Shown piece after piece: positions 9,220 to 28,724 of a DNA stretch of 29,418 nt (positions within the stretch are counted from its first letter, which is position 1; every line of letters starts with the position of its first letter). The notes under the pieces are model-generated. The model worked only from the letters and a program-made list of their open reading frames with translations. It did no database searches and was not told the DNA's origin. The stretch lies in IMG/VR virus record IMGVR_UViG_3300001683_000075, positions 1 through 29,418 of that record; one strand, written 5' to 3'. Both the position numbers and the translations under genes were made by a program. Source of the DNA: a virus.

Positions 9220-9248
9220 ATTATACTAAAGTTTTACCAAAAAGTCAA
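9220..9248 (-). promoter_or_regulatory. Sigma70-type promoter for ligase C-terminal subunit and D5-like gene
   Basis: TTGACT (9248-9243), 17-bp spacer, TATAAT (9225-9220). The -35 hexamer contains the TGA stop codon of the ligase N-terminal gene. The predicted transcript start is near 9213, 24 bases before the ATG. Confidence 0.82.
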
Positions 9249-14651: not shown

Positions 14652-15062
14652 CTATAATGAAATTCGTCTAGGCTTTAGTTCCTCTGGAATATCTAGTTCT
14701 AAGTCTACGCTCAGAACACCATTCTTTAAATCAGCGAGAGATACATTCATATGCTCTGCTAACTTGAACTCTCTTGTGAAAGCTCTATTACCAATTCCCT
14801 TATATACGAACTCGGTCTTTGTCATACTATTAGGTTTTGTACCTTTGATAGTTAGTTTACCGTTGTGTTGTTCGATAGTAAGTTGGTCTTTTGACCACCC
14901 AGCCAAAGCTATCTCGATGGTATATTTCTCATCAGAGTGTTTTGCTATGTTATATGGGGGGTATTTAAGATTGCCTGAAACTCTATCTGCGTGTGAGAAG
15001 AAGTCGTCGAATCCTATCATCATGTCCCTGAAAGGGAAGTCGTGTACTAATTGTGTTACCAT
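14652..15062 (-). CDS. Small heat shock protein, Hsp20/alpha-crystallin family
   Basis: 136 residues. A short N-terminal arm (PFRDMMIGFDDFF) is followed by an alpha-crystallin domain beginning at YPPYNIAKHSDEKYTIEIAL and including AGWSKDQLTIEQ and the strand KLTIKGTK, then FTREFKLAEHMN and a conserved-type VLSVDLEL strand. It should form oligomers that hold unfolding proteins for refolding. Hsp20 genes are common in cyanophages and other aquatic phages and are thought to aid particle assembly or host proteostasis. AAGGAG lies seven bases before the ATG and is predicted to be in a hairpin (see 15071-15087). It is a single gene with its own promoter and terminator. Confidence 0.92.
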   Translation of the reverse strand: MVTQLVHDFPFRDMMIGFDDFFSHADRVSGNLKYPPYNIAKHSDEKYTIEIALAGWSKDQLTIEQHNGKLTIKGTKPNSMTKTEFVYKGIGNRAFTREFKLAEHMNVSLADLKNGVLSVDLELDIPEELKPRRISL

Positions 15063-15070
15063 TATATTTC

Positions 15071-15087
15071 TCCTTATAAAGTAAGAA
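15071..15087 (-). promoter_or_regulatory. Candidate hairpin masking the Hsp20 ribosome site
   Basis: On the minus strand UUCUUA pairs with UAAGGA around a 5-base loop, covering the AAGGA of the Hsp20 ribosome site and including one U-G pair. Weak SD-covering hairpins of this kind act as RNA thermometers in other Hsp20 genes. Functional evidence is absent. Confidence 0.35.
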
Positions 15088-15179
15088 TTGTGTGCTTGAA
15101 GTCAAGCCACACGGGTTAAAAGGGGCTATTGCCCGTCTAATAGTTGGTAACCCCGAAGGCATTACTACTATTTATATAT

Positions 15180-15208
15180 ATTATATCAAACTTCACCAAA
15201 AAAGTCAA
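15180..15208 (-). promoter_or_regulatory. Sigma70-type promoter for Hsp20
   Basis: TTGACT (15208-15203), 17-bp spacer, TATAAT (15185-15180). The leader to the Hsp20 start is about 110 nt, longer than for most genes here, and includes a GGGC/GCCC hairpin. Confidence 0.83.
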
Positions 15209-15211
15209 GTA

Positions 15212-15361
15212 CTATTTTTGGGGGGTGTCTGTAAAATCTATAAGACCCTTCATTTCTAGAAAATCAACTGTATCTCTAATACCATGTTGACGACCTAGAT
15301 AATAAGAACCTCCTGTTGCTATAATTAAGAAGCCGTATACTAATATTTCAATATCAGACAT
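15212..15361 (-). CDS. Small membrane-anchored protein (49 aa)
   Basis: A 50-codon frame starting MSDIEILVYG with a hydrophobic helix at about 5-22, then a basic stretch (GRQHGIRD) and an acidic tail. Its start lies within the end of the upstream 44-codon gene (8-base overlap), and its stop abuts the next promoter. Weak ribosome site, consistent with coupling. Function unknown. Confidence 0.55.
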   Translation of the reverse strand: MSDIEILVYGFLIIATGGSYYLGRQHGIRDTVDFLEMKGLIDFTDTPQK

Positions 15362-15488
15362 TTTGACATCTCTTACTATTAGGATGCCTCTTACAACGGA
15401 AAGTTCCGTGACTCATAATCTTTTTAGATAATACATTTTTATTGTTGTCTCTTTTCCGTATAACATACGGTATCATTGTCTTGCTCAT
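15354..15488 (-). CDS. Small basic protein (44 aa)
   Basis: A 45-codon frame preceded by AGGAGAGG, one of the strongest ribosome sites here. The protein is strongly basic (Arg/Lys about one third) with a Cys-His-Cys segment, GTFRCKRHPNSKRCQ. That spacing could bind a metal ion or nucleic acid. It lies after the terminator at 15516-15553, so it depends on readthrough or an unseen promoter. Unknown function. Confidence 0.55.
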   Translation of the reverse strand: MSKTMIPYVIRKRDNNKNVLSKKIMSHGTFRCKRHPNSKRCQNV

Positions 15489-15515
15489 ATCCCTCTCCTT
15501 TAAATTTAATAATTA

Positions 15516-15553
15516 AAATAAAAGCCCTTCATTTAGTTAGGGGACCGAAGGGC
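15516..15553 (-). terminator. Rho-independent terminator
   Basis: Stem GCCCTTC / GAAGGGC with a 16-base loop and a TTTTATTTT tail on the minus strand. It closes the thioredoxin operon. Confidence 0.75.
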
Positions 15554-15711
15554 AAGTCCCGCAGGATTGTTGTACTATCACAATTTTAAGGGCTGGGAGG
15601 AGTATAACGCCCACCTTATAAAGAATCCCTAAGACTTTTAGGTATATAAGGCATCTTGAATCCCTTGATAGTTAGGGTAGGTAGTCGACCTACTTTTTCT
15701 TTTCACAACAA
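15554..15711 (-). other. Non-coding stretch with possible leader-like RNA
   Basis: No convincing gene. A 12-codon frame MPYIPKSLRDSL (15648 downwards) and a GTG frame of 22 codons are present but cannot be distinguished from chance. A short inverted repeat GTAGGT / ACCTAC is present. I see no other signal. Confidence 0.3.
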
Positions 15712-15834
15712 CTATTTTCCCTGACCATTGTATTTTTTGAAACTTCTTCGTTTGGACTTATTCATAGTGGAAGTTTTTATCCACCTCCTGCCAATGCTCG
15801 TTTTCTTTCTTACTCCGAATTTCCTATTCTTCAT
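15712..15834 (-). CDS. Small, extremely basic protein (40 aa)
   Basis: A 41-codon frame with AGGA five bases before the ATG. About 16 of 40 residues are Lys/Arg and acidic residues are absent. The C-terminus is KRRSFKKYNGQGK. Such composition is usual for nucleic-acid-binding peptides, including ribosomal-protein-like ones, but no family is recognised. The preceding 100 bases also read as a basic open frame without a start codon. Confidence 0.45.
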   Translation of the reverse strand: MKNRKFGVRKKTSIGRRWIKTSTMNKSKRRSFKKYNGQGK

Positions 15835-15912
15835 ACTTTCCTAAAACCTAAACTTTCTCGAACTTGAAATACTGCCCTAGCATTAGGGAATCTACGCTTA
15901 GCGTGTTCCTTA

Positions 15913-16119
15913 CTAGGGGCTCGCAGGTTCTCGAAGTGGAGGTTCTGTTTGTATATTATAAAGTTGTGATACATTTTGTAATTTTAGTTGTTGAAAAAGG
16001 TTGGAGGATAACTCTGGTTTACCAAAGTATTCCACACAGTTATAAGTAATTCTTAAGGTCGGGTAAATCGGACACCCATTATCAGCTTTTTCACAATGAC
16101 TACATAAGTCAGTCATCAT
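15913..16119 (-). CDS. Small Cys-rich protein, possible zinc binding
   Basis: 68 residues from ATG 16119 (AAGGTG seven bases upstream; a GTG at 16128 and an ATG at 16116 are alternatives). Near the N-terminus it shows DLCSHCEKADNGCPIYP and then YNCVEYF, giving four Cys in a CxxC...C...C arrangement suitable for a structural zinc. It overlaps the secreted protein gene by 11 bases. No family recognised. Confidence 0.6.
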   Translation of the reverse strand: MMTDLCSHCEKADNGCPIYPTLRITYNCVEYFGKPELSSNLFQQLKLQNVSQLYNIQTEPPLREPASP

Positions 16120-16462: not shown

Positions 16463-16782
16463 ATTCCATACTCCTTTAACCATTCGGCAAAGAATCCTTT
16501 ACCTGTTGCTCCTGTTTGTCTCGCTACTTCTGTACCTTTAACAAACAACACTAGAGTAGGAATACTTCTAATATTGTATCTTTCAGATAGATACTTGTTT
16601 TCATCAATATCTATCTTTACAACGCCAACTTCACCATAACCATCTCTTGCAACCTCTTCTAGTATTGGAGCCATCTGTTTACATGGTTCACACCAATTAG
16701 CATAGAAATCTACTATGACTAAGTTTTTATTTAATACATCATAATCAAATTTATTATCATCTGACGCTATTACATAACTCAT
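16459..16782 (-). CDS. Thioredoxin
   Basis: 107 residues with the active site WCEPC (C31, C34), the cis-proline segment SIPTL (P75) and the thioredoxin-fold strands VIVDFYANW and TLVLFVKG. The active site has Glu where E. coli thioredoxin has Gly. No signal peptide, so it is cytoplasmic; it probably reduces the phage ribonucleotide reductase encoded about 2 kb upstream, or acts as a glutaredoxin-like donor. AGAGGAAAT precedes the start. It is the first protein gene after the structured non-coding segment 16797-17450 and shares its promoter. Confidence 0.92.
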   Translation of the reverse strand: MSYVIASDDNKFDYDVLNKNLVIVDFYANWCEPCKQMAPILEEVARDGYGEVGVVKIDIDENKYLSERYNIRSIPTLVLFVKGTEVARQTGATGKGFFAEWLKEYGI

Positions 16783-16796
16783 ATAATTTCCTCTTA

Positions 16797-17450
16797 AATT
16801 AGTTGGAGGCTGTTAAGGACAGCCTGCCTGAACCTAACGGTTTTTCGTGTACGTTCTCCACTAACTGCTCTTATACCAGTAGACTGTTTAACGTCCAAGT
16901 CGTTGACGCCATCTGTTAAAGTCTAATCTATTTCATCCCCATCATTGTGGCACTAGGGTGACACTAACACACTAAATGTGTGGGAGGAGCATGTTAATGC
17001 CACAATGGTGGAGATGGCTGGTACTGCCCCAGCGTGCTAAAACCTATGGATTTAGTTCTTTCGCGGTTACTTAGACTAAAAGTGGGGTAGAACTTCCGCG
17101 TCGTTCTACCCCTGTCTAGACTCCGTCTATTTGAGTTCTATTTTGGGGAGGTCACTCTAGGCACATTGTTCCTATAACCTCAAACATCCTTATTTTAGGG
17201 CGTGAAATGTTTGTACGCCCCATCCTGCTCATATTTATCCTGCACTTGGGAATTACAACATGCAGTATCTTTCTAACTGGTTTGGTCTTTGCTTCTTTAG
17301 TTGCTAAGCCTTTGCACAGTCACCTCGCACTAAGACAATGTTCAAATACCCCCTCTGACGAGTTTTCTGGTCTGTTGTATCAGACCTTACTTGATGCTTG
17401 AACCCTTATGTACTTTGGCTGAAAAATTAGGTTAAAATTATTCATTTCTG
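16797..17450 (-). ncRNA. Candidate large structured RNA 1 (about 650 nt)
   Basis: No protein gene fits in this segment. It lies between a consensus promoter (17457-17485) and the thioredoxin ribosome site. On the minus strand it contains: a 10-bp perfect hairpin (17112-17103 with 17093-17084); a 19-position helix (17016-16998 with 16952-16934, one C-A mismatch and one U-G); hairpins GGGCGT/ACGCCC (17220-17215, 17203-17198), GGTCTG/CAGACC, CACAC/GTGTG (16982-16968) and AGGCTGT/ACAGCCT (16825-16807). A 7-bp pseudoknot is possible between loop CAAACAT (17213-17207) and ATGTTTG (17187-17181), and a GC-only one between loop CGCGG and CCGCG (17066-17062). The folding is inspected by eye only. It could be processed from, or act as the leader of, the thioredoxin transcript. 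Confidence 0.75.
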
Positions 17451-17456
17451 AAATAT

Positions 17457-17485
17457 ATTATACTCGGTATTCACCAAAATGTCAA
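17457..17485 (-). promoter_or_regulatory. Sigma70-type promoter for structured RNA 1 and thioredoxin operon
   Basis: TTGACA (17485-17480), 17-bp spacer, TATAAT (17462-17457), both hexamers perfect. It is the only visible promoter for the RNA segment and the thioredoxin genes. Confidence 0.87.
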
Positions 17486-17495
17486 GTTATATTTT

Positions 17496-17591
17496 TCAGA
17501 GAAGGAATAGATAAAATAGTACAGCCACCCAAATGCCAATCAAGGACACCACTAGAAATGCAAATATTAAATTATTATGTATAGTTTTCAT
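17496..17591 (-). CDS. Tiny membrane protein (31 aa)
   Basis: A 32-codon frame, MKTIHNN followed by an uninterrupted hydrophobic helix to the C-terminus. The ATG overlaps the upstream stop (ATGA) and the TGA abuts the next promoter. Probably a single-pass inner-membrane peptide of unknown function. Confidence 0.5.
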   Translation of the reverse strand: MKTIHNNLIFAFLVVSLIGIWVAVLFYLFLL

Positions 17592-17752
17592 TTATTCCAG
17601 TCACTACGCCACAGGGGGCGTGGTTGGGTTTTTAGTTTATCTTTCTGCTCTTGTTCTTCTCTTTCCTTCTTTTCTCTTTCTCTTTTTTCTTGCTCCATTT
17701 TTATTTGCATAAGCAAGACTTTATCTACTTGTATCAAACCATGATTTTTCAT
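17588..17752 (-). CDS. Small charged helical protein (54 aa)
   Basis: A 55-codon frame. Residues 15-42 are a continuous Glu/Lys/Arg helix, likely a single long helix or coiled coil. The C-terminus is proline-rich, then ends WRSDWNK. It overlaps the downstream membrane peptide by 4 bases (ATGA) and begins just after the upstream stop. Unknown function. Confidence 0.55.
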   Translation of the reverse strand: MKNHGLIQVDKVLLMQIKMEQEKREREKKEREEQEQKDKLKTQPRPLWRSDWNK

Positions 17753-24622: not shown

Positions 24623-24973
24623 ATGGTTAAAAAATTAGTTACTAGAGGTGAGGTTGATGGATTCTTGGGTATAGATACTCAAATTAATTCGTCTGAGAAC
24701 CCTCTAGAGGAAGCAATAGATATGCTAACTGATTTAATCAATGGTGAGTATTCTGTAGACCAACTGCGTAGAGATGTGCATGAATGGAAGAATACATGGA
24801 CTGTTATTACACCAAAGAAACCCCGTCCAGCACCAATGCCAGCAATGTCTCCTTTTGAAGATGAGGTAGACTTACGACAAAGAGCAATGGAGGCTAATGT
24901 AGCCCGAACTGAAATTAGTGGTAAGTATAACACTAGATGGACTCCTAATGCGAAAAACATTTATAGTCCATAA
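24623..24973 (+). CDS. Hypothetical protein upstream of structured RNA 2
   Basis: 116 residues, AAGGA upstream. The N-terminal 70 residues are helical and acidic (NPLEEAIDMLTDLINGEYS), followed by a proline-rich linker (TPKKPRPAPMPAMSP) and a charged C-terminus. It is the first gene after the promoter at 24541-24569. No family recognised. The proline-rich linker suggests two parts with separate functions. Confidence 0.68.
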   Translation: MVKKLVTRGEVDGFLGIDTQINSSENPLEEAIDMLTDLINGEYSVDQLRRDVHEWKNTWTVITPKKPRPAPMPAMSPFEDEVDLRQRAMEANVARTEISGKYNTRWTPNAKNIYSP

Positions 24974-24974
24974 A

Positions 24975-25645
24975 TACAACTACTGTTGCTAGTAGAATAC
25001 AAGGGGAACGAGTTGAATAGGACATTATATAAAGGGAATGACTACAAACACCCGTCTCGTTCTGACAGACTAGAAGCCAAGACTAGTCTATAATTAAAGA
25101 CTTGGAGATGAGGTTGCCACCCTCGCGTTAAACAACCAAGGCAAGGAGGTTTTAGCATGACCTACCGCGTATAAGTATCTATCGACTAGTGAGTAACTTA
25201 CAGTAACTGAAACGAGATGCCTGAAATAGGGTAACTGAGAAGGTGAATAAAGTGGGTGAGAAACTTAGGGCAAACTGATAGAGCGTGTGGACAAAGGAGG
25301 TTCCACCACCCAACTTTCCTACAAATGCCTTACGAGTACCAGTTTATCTGTTGTACCGAAAGAGCAAGGAAACGGTAAAAGAATAAAATGCTGACTTGTC
25401 GTAGACGAGTAGGACGAACCCTAGCGATACTATCACTAGGGGTAAGCCCACCCTATAGACAATGCACCCAGACTTCACGAGGTCTGTATCCACACTGGGT
25501 TTGCAGTAAATCAAGCCCCAGAACTGGTGGGACACAAGTAAACACGTGCGTCCTCGAGCCATGACGGAAGTGAACAGGTGTAAGGCAGCAACCATCGAAC
25601 TTTCACTAGGGTATTAAACTGGCTCCCCTATTCTAACACACAATA
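24975..25645 (+). ncRNA. Candidate large structured RNA 2 (about 670 nt)
   Basis: No gene in any frame is convincing, and it lies between two intact plus-strand genes. Plus-strand helices seen by eye: CTACT/AGTAG (24980-24995) right after the stop codon; AACGAG (25007-25012) with CTCGTT (25056-25061); AGACTAG/CTAGTCT (25067-25089) whose loop CCAAG (25077-25081) can pair with CTTGG (25101-25105) as an H-type pseudoknot; a bulged 10-bp stem (25249-25258 with 25307-25317) enclosing a GTGG/CCAC hairpin that exposes AGGAGG; TACCG/CGGTA (25354-25377); ACTTGTC/GACGAGT (25394-25410); CCCTAG/CTAGGG (25419-25441); a bulged nine-pair stem (25463-25505); and TAGGG/CCCTA (25607-25630). The density of stems exceeds chance. 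Two full Shine-Dalgarno matches occur inside, one before a five-codon frame. Confidence 0.75.
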
Positions 25646-25656
25646 CAGGAACAACA

Positions 25657-27174: not shown

Positions 27175-27337
27175 TAAGAAGTGGTATGACATTTTAGACT
27201 ACTTGGTTGGAGGAACAATCGGACTTATCATAGCATCCTTCTTCACCAGCAATCACTATGTTGCTGCAGTATGGTTTATTATTGGAGGAATTATTCTTGA
27301 CACAATTATGACTCATTTAGAAAATTCCCAACACTGA
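27164..27337 (+). CDS. Small membrane protein, GTG start (57 aa)
   Basis: A 58-codon frame from GTG 27164, overlapping the previous stop by 11 bases. Two hydrophobic segments (about 14-27 and 31-50) follow a Lys/Trp N-terminus, suggesting a two-pass inner-membrane protein. The last gene of the plus-strand operon. Confidence 0.55.
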   Translation: MKNNKKWYDILDYLVGGTIGLIIASFFTSNHYVAAVWFIIGGIILDTIMTHLENSQH

Positions 27338-27390
27338 ACTTCAAATTCATCCAACACATCAAAAATAGTTAACATAAGATGCTCAAAATA

Positions 27391-27399
27391 TGATATAAT
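27391..27399 (+). promoter_or_regulatory. Extended -10 promoter upstream of hairpin RNA
   Basis: TGATATAAT matches the extended -10 form TGnTATAAT. A TTAACA -35-like element is 19 bp upstream, so recognition would rely on the extended -10. Transcription would start near 27406, just before the outer stem of the nested hairpin. Confidence 0.5.
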
Positions 27400-27405
27400 T
27401 ATAGT

Positions 27406-27556
27406 AATTTTATATACTTAAAAAGTTTATTTAGTTTTTACTACTTATACTTAAGAAATCTTCGAGATATCACTGAATCTGATTGGTGAGCCTAAAGCGA
27501 ATCTAAGCAGATTTGTTGATGTTATTGAAGAAGATTGATATTAAATAAACTTTTAA
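27406..27556 (+). ncRNA. Candidate small structured RNA with nested stem
   Basis: A 13-bp perfect inverted repeat (27422-27434 with 27542-27554) encloses about 107 bases. Inside it AATCTTC (27458-27464) pairs with GAAGATT (27530-27536), and AATCT/AGATT (27500-27513) forms a tetraloop hairpin. No gene is seen. The nested arrangement and the extended -10 promoter suggest a small RNA or an RNA processing element, but the AT-rich stems make chance possible. Confidence 0.45.
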
Positions 27557-27642
27557 TAACGACAGATGTTAAAGCCTACTATTACGTTCTAAAGCAAGCC
27601 CTATATACTAATGCGAACTTACACTAATCGTATAAGATATAT

Positions 27643-27798
27643 TTAAGTTATTGCACAAGGCTTAAAATGAGAGTTAATTGGCTTAAATTTTAATACATAA
27701 TATGATATTCCTTTAGATTTTTCGTCGCCGTCGTTTAGCGTCAACTCCCTACTCAACCCCAAATTTCTAGTTTTCATACTGAACTGAAATAATCCCAT
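27643..27798 (-). CDS. Candidate small protein (51 aa)
   Basis: A 52-codon minus-strand frame with GGAGG nine bases before the ATG. MGLFQFSMKTRN then a mixed-charge region and a Lys-rich C-terminus with one Cys. It sits between the terminator at 27951-27975 and the structured block, with no promoter visible for it. Composition is not decisive. Confidence 0.3.
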   Translation of the reverse strand: MGLFQFSMKTRNLGLSRELTLNDGDEKSKGISYYVLKFKPINSHFKPCAIT

Positions 27799-27842
27799 TT
27801 AATCAATCCTCCACATCTACCTAAAAGTGGATATTCCTTTAG
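27704..27842. repeat. Short direct repeat, GATATTCCTTTAG, twice
   Basis: GATATTCCTTTAG occurs at 27704-27716 and 27830-27842, each followed by a TTTTCGT-type stretch, 126 bases apart. CGTTTAGCGT also occurs twice, at 27732 and 27980. The rest of 27557-27950 holds only the 51-residue candidate. Confidence 0.5.
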
Positions 27843-27950
27843 TTTTCGTACTTAACTAGAGTACCTTAGTAGAACTAGGGCAAGTTTATCATTTCATGAT
27901 ATCTTTGCCCACCTTCTACAAATCGTATTCTCACGCTTACTATCGGACAC

Positions 27951-27975
27951 AAAAAACCCCCAATTAAGGGGGTTT
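27951..27975 (-). terminator. Bidirectional rho-independent terminator
   Basis: Stem CCCCC / GGGGG with a 6-base loop. On the minus strand it is followed by TTTTTT, ending the operon from 29.3 kb. On the plus strand the tail is only TTT, so it is weaker there. Confidence 0.85.
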
Positions 27976-27992
27976 CTGCCGTTTAGCGTAAA

Positions 27993-28070
27993 TTAACTAA
28001 GATAGATTAAAAATAGTAGTGGAAAAAATACTATAATAAAGGCTATATCAATCCAATCTAAATGCTTCAT
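27993..28070 (-). CDS. Tiny membrane protein (25 aa)
   Basis: A 26-codon frame, MKHLDWIDIAFIIVFFPLL and a hydrophobic end, with AGGAG before the start. Single-pass membrane peptide, last of a cassette of four. Confidence 0.45.
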   Translation of the reverse strand: MKHLDWIDIAFIIVFFPLLFLIYLS

Positions 28071-28077
28071 ACTACTC

Positions 28078-28206
28078 CTAATAATGAAAGTGGTTCGCTT
28101 TATCACGACTTTTCATAAATGGAGTCGGCTGTGTCTTAGCATCCTTTAGACCAGCGACTACTAATACTGATATAAATAATGTGATTACTACTAATGCTGC
28201 TGTCAT
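28078..28206 (-). CDS. Small single-pass membrane protein (42 aa)
   Basis: A 43-codon frame. Hydrophobic N-terminus (MTAALVVITLFISVLVVAGL) then a basic, proline-containing tail ending NHFHY. AGGAGC precedes the start, and the start overlaps the upstream stop (ATGA). N-terminal anchor with cytoplasmic or periplasmic tail. Confidence 0.5.
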   Translation of the reverse strand: MTAALVVITLFISVLVVAGLKDAKTQPTPFMKSRDKANHFHY

Positions 28207-28298
28207 AATACTGCTCCTAATTTAAATACATATCCAATAATGAGGGGTACTAAAACCATGATTAACAAGAATATCATAATACCATTGCTCTTCATCAT
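28203..28298 (-). CDS. Tiny membrane protein (31 aa)
   Basis: A 32-codon frame, MMKSNG followed by a hydrophobic helix. The start overlaps the upstream stop and follows GAGGTGGTG; the stop overlaps the next start (ATGA). Confidence 0.5.
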   Translation of the reverse strand: MMKSNGIMIFLLIMVLVPLIIGYVFKLGAVL

Positions 28299-28393
28299 AG
28301 CACCACCTCGACTAATATAACTATTTGTAGCCCCAATATTGATAGGGCTACTGATGTACGGATTATCTCCATACCTATTCTAAAGGTTCTCAT
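28295..28393 (-). CDS. Small amphipathic or membrane protein (32 aa)
   Basis: A 33-codon frame, MRTFRIGMEIIRTSVALSIL and a hydrophobic end (LQIVILVEVVL). GGAGG lies nine bases before the ATG, inside the end of the Myb-like gene. It opens the membrane-peptide cassette. Confidence 0.5.
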   Translation of the reverse strand: MRTFRIGMEIIRTSVALSILGLQIVILVEVVL

Positions 28394-28394
28394 A

Positions 28395-28724
28395 CTAAAA
28401 ACCCTCCTTCAAGTCCTCCACTAACACCTTAAGATATAATAGTTCTGCTTTAGACGACTTTTCTAGTGTCTGTAAGCGTTCTTTATCACCTTGTAACATA
28501 TCAGCGATTTCTTGTACCATCTCTAACTTAGTGATGGGTTTTTCACCACGCTTAGTGGTATAGTCTTTCTTGACATAAACTTTTTCACGGGATAACTTAC
28601 CGATAACGGATTTAACAGTCTTTCCCATTTCATTTGCTAACTTGTCTACTGTTTCACGAGTAGGGTTAGTCTGGTACACACTTATCATGTGTTGAGTTTG
28701 CTCATCTGTGTAATTCTTTGCCAT
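28395..28724 (-). CDS. Small HTH/Myb-like DNA-binding protein, copy 2
   Basis: 109 residues. The first 50 (YTDEQTQHMISVYQTNPTRE then ANEMGKTVKSVIGKLSREKVYVKKD) form one unit of the same repeat as the neighbouring gene and the D5-like protein. The remainder is a charged helix. It is coupled to the upstream copy by TAATG, with GAGG five bases before the start. It is a tandem diverged paralogue. Likely a sequence-specific DNA-binding or transcription-modulating protein, by pattern only. Confidence 0.65.
   Translation of the reverse strand: MAKNYTDEQTQHMISVYQTNPTRETVDKLANEMGKTVKSVIGKLSREKVYVKKDYTTKRGEKPITKLEMVQEIADMLQGDKERLQTLEKSSKAELLYLKVLVEDLKEGF

Follow-up and report, generated by a model that had tools for sequence, protein, structure and literature searches.

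The 3' third of a large structured RNA encoded by a metagenomic phage genome fragment is, judged by its sequence, a circularly permuted two-piece tmRNA (ssrA). What seems to be new is a pseudoknotted extension of approximately 390 nt on its acceptor piece and the absence of a degradation tag. The fragment, a 29,418-base IMG/VR record analyzed in full and referred to here as the window, encodes a DNA polymerase nearest to those of T5-like phages (46-48% identity across 99% of its length), together with DNA ligase fragments, ribonucleotide reductase, Hsp20, and thioredoxin. The majority of its genes are carried by the minus strand, as is the tmRNA-like element, which lies between a sigma70 promoter (TTGACA-17-TATAAT, 17485-17457) and the thioredoxin gene immediately 3' of it (16782-16459; Pfam PF00085, E 3.2e-27). 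When viral contigs were searched for relatives of the small subunit of ribonucleotide reductase, 66 loci were obtained; two of them, L005 and L015, contain the complete element, flanked in both by thioredoxin and by the same perfect promoter. The form with the extension is known from these three sequences, all of them metagenome-derived records that are probably incomplete.

An earlier, sequence-only reading had proposed that positions 16797-17450 specify a large, pseudoknotted RNA with its own perfect promoter directly upstream of thioredoxin, and this proposal was supported; the strand, which had been left unstated, is the minus strand, as for thioredoxin. The promoter matches the consensus at 12 of 12 positions with a 17-nt spacer and is kept in both L005 and L015. 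The segment was also held to be gene-free, and indeed no frame within it is conserved: the longest, on the plus strand (88 aa between stops, or 64 aa counted from ATG), is broken in both homologues. A protein-coding segment was accordingly rejected, its frames being interrupted in L005 and L015 by stops and by indels whose lengths, not divisible by three, change the frame. Perfect TTGACA-N16-18-TATAAT sites are frequent throughout the window, with eight observed against a mean of 0.0 in dinucleotide shuffles (959, 14231, 17485, 18258, 23403, and 29296 on the minus strand; 23445 and 24541 on the plus strand), and the promoters at 9240, 17485, and 23403 also have flanking sequence in common.

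The tmRNA was recognized in a relaxed-threshold Rfam search by two matches on the minus strand, both with scores just under the curated cut-offs: alpha_tmRNA (RF01849; 42.4 bits, E=1.5e-10, cut-off 50) and tmRNA_permuted (RF04321; 41.9 bits, E=7.6e-7, cut-off 47). L005 and L015 likewise gave sub-cut-off matches to these models. ARAGORN found no tmRNA and Rfam at its curated cut-offs returned nothing; since both miss the window RNA, other phage genomes may contain RNAs of this kind that have gone unnoticed. The tmRNA models aside, none of 4227 Rfam families reached E=0.1 in the segment.

Read along the minus strand, the tRNA-like domain opens with a block (17049-17017) aligned by both RF01849 and RF04321 that holds the acceptor-side strand of P2 (17049-17037) and the T arm (GCUGG-GGCAGUA-CCAGC, 17033-17017), the T stem being GCUGG/CCAGC. 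It is followed by the 3' strand of the acceptor stem, CAUCUCC, and an ACCA end (17016-17006), both placed by the Rfam match; the three-sequence alignment shows a compensatory U-A to G-C change in this stem in L015. An intervening sequence (17005-16941), presumably excised, then separates ACCA from the 5' strand of the acceptor stem; it is 65 nt long in the window and 54 nt in L015, and forms a self-complementary stem in the window and L005. Beyond it, Rfam alignment and covariation place the acceptor 5' strand GGGGAUG, the D-loop region, and the coding-side strand of P2 (16940-16909). This succession of CCA, intervening sequence, and acceptor 5' strand is the permuted tmRNA gene order (PMC11915505), and the 7-bp acceptor stem (GGGGAUG/CAUCUCC) contains a G3-U70 wobble, the mark of alanine acceptors (PMC3968760). 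The 19-position helix noticed in the sequence-only reading (16934-16952 with 16998-17016) exists; it corresponds to the acceptor stem together with the intervening-sequence stem, and what had been overlooked is the tRNA-like domain to which it belongs. P2 is short, with two U-U mismatches; it is an interrupted helix in the window and L005, and the pairs of its first block are broken in L015 as aligned. Some tmRNAs are known to have a group I intron in the T loop; here that loop is contiguous, and this form was rejected. A T-arm pattern match in L004 was also discarded, as a pattern with the wrong spacing and a chance match inside a coding region.

Three further elements follow in the coding piece. 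A PK1 candidate (16910-16882), identified by eye, pairs GGCGUC with GACGUU and its loop GACU with AGUC; it is identical in L005, and a different pseudoknot occupies this position in L015. The sequence UUAGGUU (16837-16831) pairs in the minimum-energy fold with AACCUAA (17433-17427) near the 5' end of the RNA, an interaction that is the same in L005 and weaker in L015. Finally, a 3' hairpin (AGGCUGU..ACAGCCU, 16825-16807) is located where the coding piece of relatives has PK2.

The 5' extension of the acceptor piece (17450-17056) comprises several hairpins and two pseudoknots and is kept with compensatory changes in L005 and L015. At its 5' side, a helix (17403-17393/17350-17340) encloses a hairpin (17386-17369); double changes occur in two outer pairs and one hairpin pair of this region (17403-17340), and some positions are broken in L015, partly through misalignment. 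An H-type pseudoknot (17220-17181) is formed by a stem (17220-17215/17203-17198) and a loop stem (17213-17207/17187-17181), with double changes in four of the seven loop-stem pairs. It is followed by a helix (17180-17176/17153-17149) with double changes in two pairs and none broken. The last domain (17118-17062) consists of a 10-bp hairpin (17112-17103/17093-17084) set within a helix (17118-17114/17076-17072), and its loop CGCGG (17100-17096) pairs with CCGCG (17066-17062). Double changes are found here in seven of ten hairpin pairs and in three of five pairs of the flanking helix, which is misaligned in L015. The hairpins, helix, and loop matches that had been listed from the sequence are all present, and all on the minus strand. 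The two homologues retain the 10-bp hairpin and the 7-bp match of the H-type pseudoknot with compensatory changes, and the 5-bp loop match with one G-C to G-U change.

Covariation across homologues, which the sequence-only reading had named as decisive, proved positive. In the three-sequence alignment, 93.7% of positions in a 98-pair structure form standard pairs and 21 pairs carry double changes; when the partners were slid by 1-3 columns, 38-46% were paired with 1-5 double-change pairs, and shuffling gave a mean of 8.3. The structure was derived from the window's own sequence, which alone favours the unslid version in percent paired, and the covariation, strong as it is, concerns three related sequences without phylogenetic correction. 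Compensated changes are distributed over the 10-bp hairpin (7), the loop stem of the H-type pseudoknot (4), five further helices, and the acceptor stem. Folding of the whole segment gave z-scores of -4.6 for the minus strand (20 shuffles) and -3.1 for the plus strand. For the 5' domain alone, the values in the three sequences were -2.6, -1.6, and 0.0, not clearly beyond shuffles, and hence the real evidence for the fold is covariation rather than folding energy.

The RNA had been suggested to belong either to a known class of ornate RNAs or to a new one. Its size, promoter, and several pseudoknots would be compatible with GOLLD, ROOL, or another described class, and GOLLD and ROOL are likewise large, pseudoknotted, and found in phages. 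Unlike these, the window RNA has a tRNA-like domain of the tmRNA type in its 3' third, and at E up to 10 no Rfam match to GOLLD, ROOL, OLE, HEARO, or group I/II introns was obtained over 16700-17600; the chance that it represents such a class is negligible. Membership of a known ornate class thus fell away, and a new structured domain of approximately 390 nt stood, joined to a tmRNA. Homologues of this domain were sought in viral contigs with sequence patterns and in the fetched loci with a profile, which recovered only L005 and L015, and none was detected in phage records. Among 84,980 bacterial and archaeal species, each represented by one genome, both the exact 5'-domain pattern and an exact pattern for the tRNA-like part together with the AGCACG leader were absent, exact patterns being of a kind that misses diverged copies.

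Permuted tmRNA itself occurs commonly among these phages, the window version being a diverged form of it: 23 of 49 related phage records have a permuted tmRNA above the Rfam cut-off. The tags of these relatives are ordinary and end in -LAA or -IAA (ANANTYAIAA, ANNADYISANRGVALAA, ANDNVYAIAA). In four of the loci (L030, L032, L038, and L068), a different conserved element, GAACCACUU..GGAAGAUAAGG..GAGUGCUUCC, is situated just upstream of the acceptor piece; it could form an H-type pseudoknot (CACU/AGUG with GGAAG/CUUCC) having a variable hairpin in one loop.

In the window, the putative resume codon GCA (16868-16866) follows UAAGA and begins the frame AVSGERTRKTVRFRQAVLNSLQLI, which closes with a UAA stop and has no -AA signal (16868-16794). 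The resume contexts of the window, L005, and L015 are UAAGA-GCA, UAAGU-GCU, and UAAGA-GCA, respectively, each positioned by eye 12-13 nt past the pseudoknot candidate; UAANN-GCN is thus common to all three, even though the pseudoknot sequence of L015 differs. None of the coding-piece frames in these three sequences ends in an -AA-type degradation signal, and inspection of the 5' domain by eye produced no convincing frame for a tag. Among 113 permuted tmRNA candidates, 110 have an -AA signal (108 recognized by script, and two of the five exceptions by eye), and those without it are only the window, L005, and L015. With a tRNA-like domain and permuted order present and a tag absent, the RNA was classed as a permuted tmRNA variant and not as a tagging tmRNA.

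No conservation is seen in the frame opened by this codon: in the window and L005 its stop falls immediately ahead of the ribosome-binding site of thioredoxin, and in L015 the frame is shifted and continues into thioredoxin without a stop. A tmRNA that is active in tagging but adds an unusual tag might nevertheless be imagined, in which the GCA frame is read through the 3' hairpin to give 24-27 residues ending in LQL or LQLI, perhaps coupled to thioredoxin translation given that the frame reaches or passes the thioredoxin ribosome-binding site. The frame runs open over 24 codons in the window and over 27 in L005; its end is ...RFRQAVLNSLQL(I) in each, the stop adjoins that site, and relatives have long tags, e.g., approximately 30 aa in L067. 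Against such a tag are the shifted, stopless frame of L015, the coincidence of the shared end with a conserved RNA hairpin, and the fact that frames open over such a length are not unusual by chance, and we consider it improbable.

We infer that the RNA is a phage two-piece permuted tmRNA with an enlarged acceptor piece, which would be charged with alanine and free stalled ribosomes without marking their products for proteolysis, and we consider this slightly more probable than not. Transcription from the promoter at 17485 would yield a precursor of approximately 650 nt, from which tRNA-processing enzymes would excise the 65-nt intervening sequence, as for known permuted tmRNAs. This would leave an acceptor piece (approximately 17450-17006) with ACCA at its end and a coding piece starting at 16940, joined to each other through the acceptor stem, P2, and the helix between their outer ends. 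Processing of the tRNA type would also release the RNA from the thioredoxin message, and hence the tRNA-like domain would account for its being cut from that transcript. G3-U70 would direct alanine charging, and host SmpB would deliver the RNA to stalled ribosomes, where translation would restart at GCA (16868). Ribosomes would be recycled and the rescued products not destroyed, these being spared ClpXP-type proteases because no -LAA-type tag follows the resume codon. Counted for the tmRNA reading are the Rfam E-values, the acceptor and T-arm parts, the double-change pairs, the resume context, the permuted tmRNAs of relatives, and, for the tagless form, the lack of an -AA-ending frame. Counted against it are the sub-cut-off scores, the ARAGORN miss, the short P2, the limitation to three sequences, a post-resume frame that is not conserved and whose stopless form in L015 would not free the ribosome, and the finding of no phage-encoded SmpB in 13 records, all of them possibly fragments.

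The missing tag and the strong promoter would also suit a decoy that, during infection, binds SmpB, AlaRS, or EF-Tu of the host through its tRNA-like domain and so blocks host trans-translation without a productive tag, the extension providing stability or abundance. There is precedent in a molecule resembling the tmRNA of phage DS6A, which has the tRNA-like domain only: it strongly inhibits tmRNA, perhaps by titration of SmpB (PMC4131195). A decoy, however, needs neither a resume context nor a pseudoknot at fixed spacing, and both, as judged by eye, are kept in the three sequences. The kept resume site mildly favours tmRNA rescue, and we regard the decoy as rather unlikely. A decaying tmRNA, or a tmRNA-derived leader that only regulates or processes the thioredoxin message, would be in keeping with the sub-threshold Rfam scores, the lost tag, and the fixed position before thioredoxin in all three sequences. 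However, the T arm, ACCA, and the acceptor stem with its G3-U70 pair are all intact, and the 21 pairs maintained by double changes point to selection on the RNA fold, leaving this explanation very improbable. The unusual tag, the pseudogene, and the thioredoxin leader are each less likely than tagless rescue or a decoy.

The role of the extension in tagless rescue may be sought by comparison with other tmRNAs. Two-piece tmRNAs have fewer pseudoknots than the one-piece form (PMC3968760), with PK1 and PK2 sitting in the coding piece (PMC3985003), and a large pseudoknotted acceptor piece contradicts this picture. In one-piece tmRNA, PK2-PK4 serve folding and maturation (PMC3968760), and by analogy the extension probably folds or protects the RNA. 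Like one-piece tmRNA (RF00023), the window RNA has pseudoknots between the tag end and the acceptor-side strand of P2, an equivalence that is positional only; unlike it, the window gene is permuted and the extension has no sequence match to the RF00023 model. With permuted tmRNAs (RF04321/RF01849/RF01850; marine phages such as Melnitz, PMC9004378) it shares the order of T arm, CCA, intervening sequence, acceptor 5' strand, D region, and candidate PK1 and resume codon, as well as G3-U70, a phage location, and an early-type promoter, the ordinary form being present in this phage's relatives; it departs from them in the additional pseudoknotted nucleotides 5' of the acceptor piece, the lack of an -AA tag, the Rfam scores below cut-offs, a diverged D region, and the short P2. 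A tRNA-like domain with no recognizable degradation tag is also found in tagless tmRNAs, viz. that of phage DS6A and the 'Permuted, no CDS' entries of the tmRNA database (PMC4131195, PMC11915505), but the DS6A form has little beyond this domain and the window RNA has a resume context and a large structured extension. Somewhat more tentatively than the rescue function, one may conceive of a remodelled lineage of phage tmRNAs, acting as a non-destructive rescue RNA or as a blocker of host rescue, in which the tag is gone and the 390-nt domain adds a function of its own, e.g., as a binding site for the ribosome, for SmpB, or for a phage protein. The upkeep of hijacked translation machinery and the recycling of host proteins have been proposed as reasons for phage tmRNA (PMC9004378). 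A tagless phage tmRNA with charging and resume signals would, if confirmed, uncouple ribosome rescue from protein destruction, and would render the question of why phages carry tmRNA testable.

The Hsp20 gene of the window (14652-15062; Pfam PF00011) is found 1.4 kb past thioredoxin, and in L051 an Hsp20-like frame lies directly 3' of the tmRNA; this proximity hints at a protein-quality gene cluster. Other parts of the window are also gene-poor. A long stretch with few plausible genes (15062-15913) is 82-90% conserved in L005 and L015, and another (27337-28395) was not matched by any of the fetched loci; Rfam returned no match for either. A further gene-poor segment of approximately 680 nt (24973-25656), for which Rfam gave nothing at E up to 1, is conserved only in L015 (80%) and L005/L222. 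It contains frame-breaking indels and a hairpin near 25420-25450 of wholly different sequence among the three, and its consensus fold has 13 double-change pairs on the plus strand or 10 on the minus strand; it is possibly a new large structured RNA.
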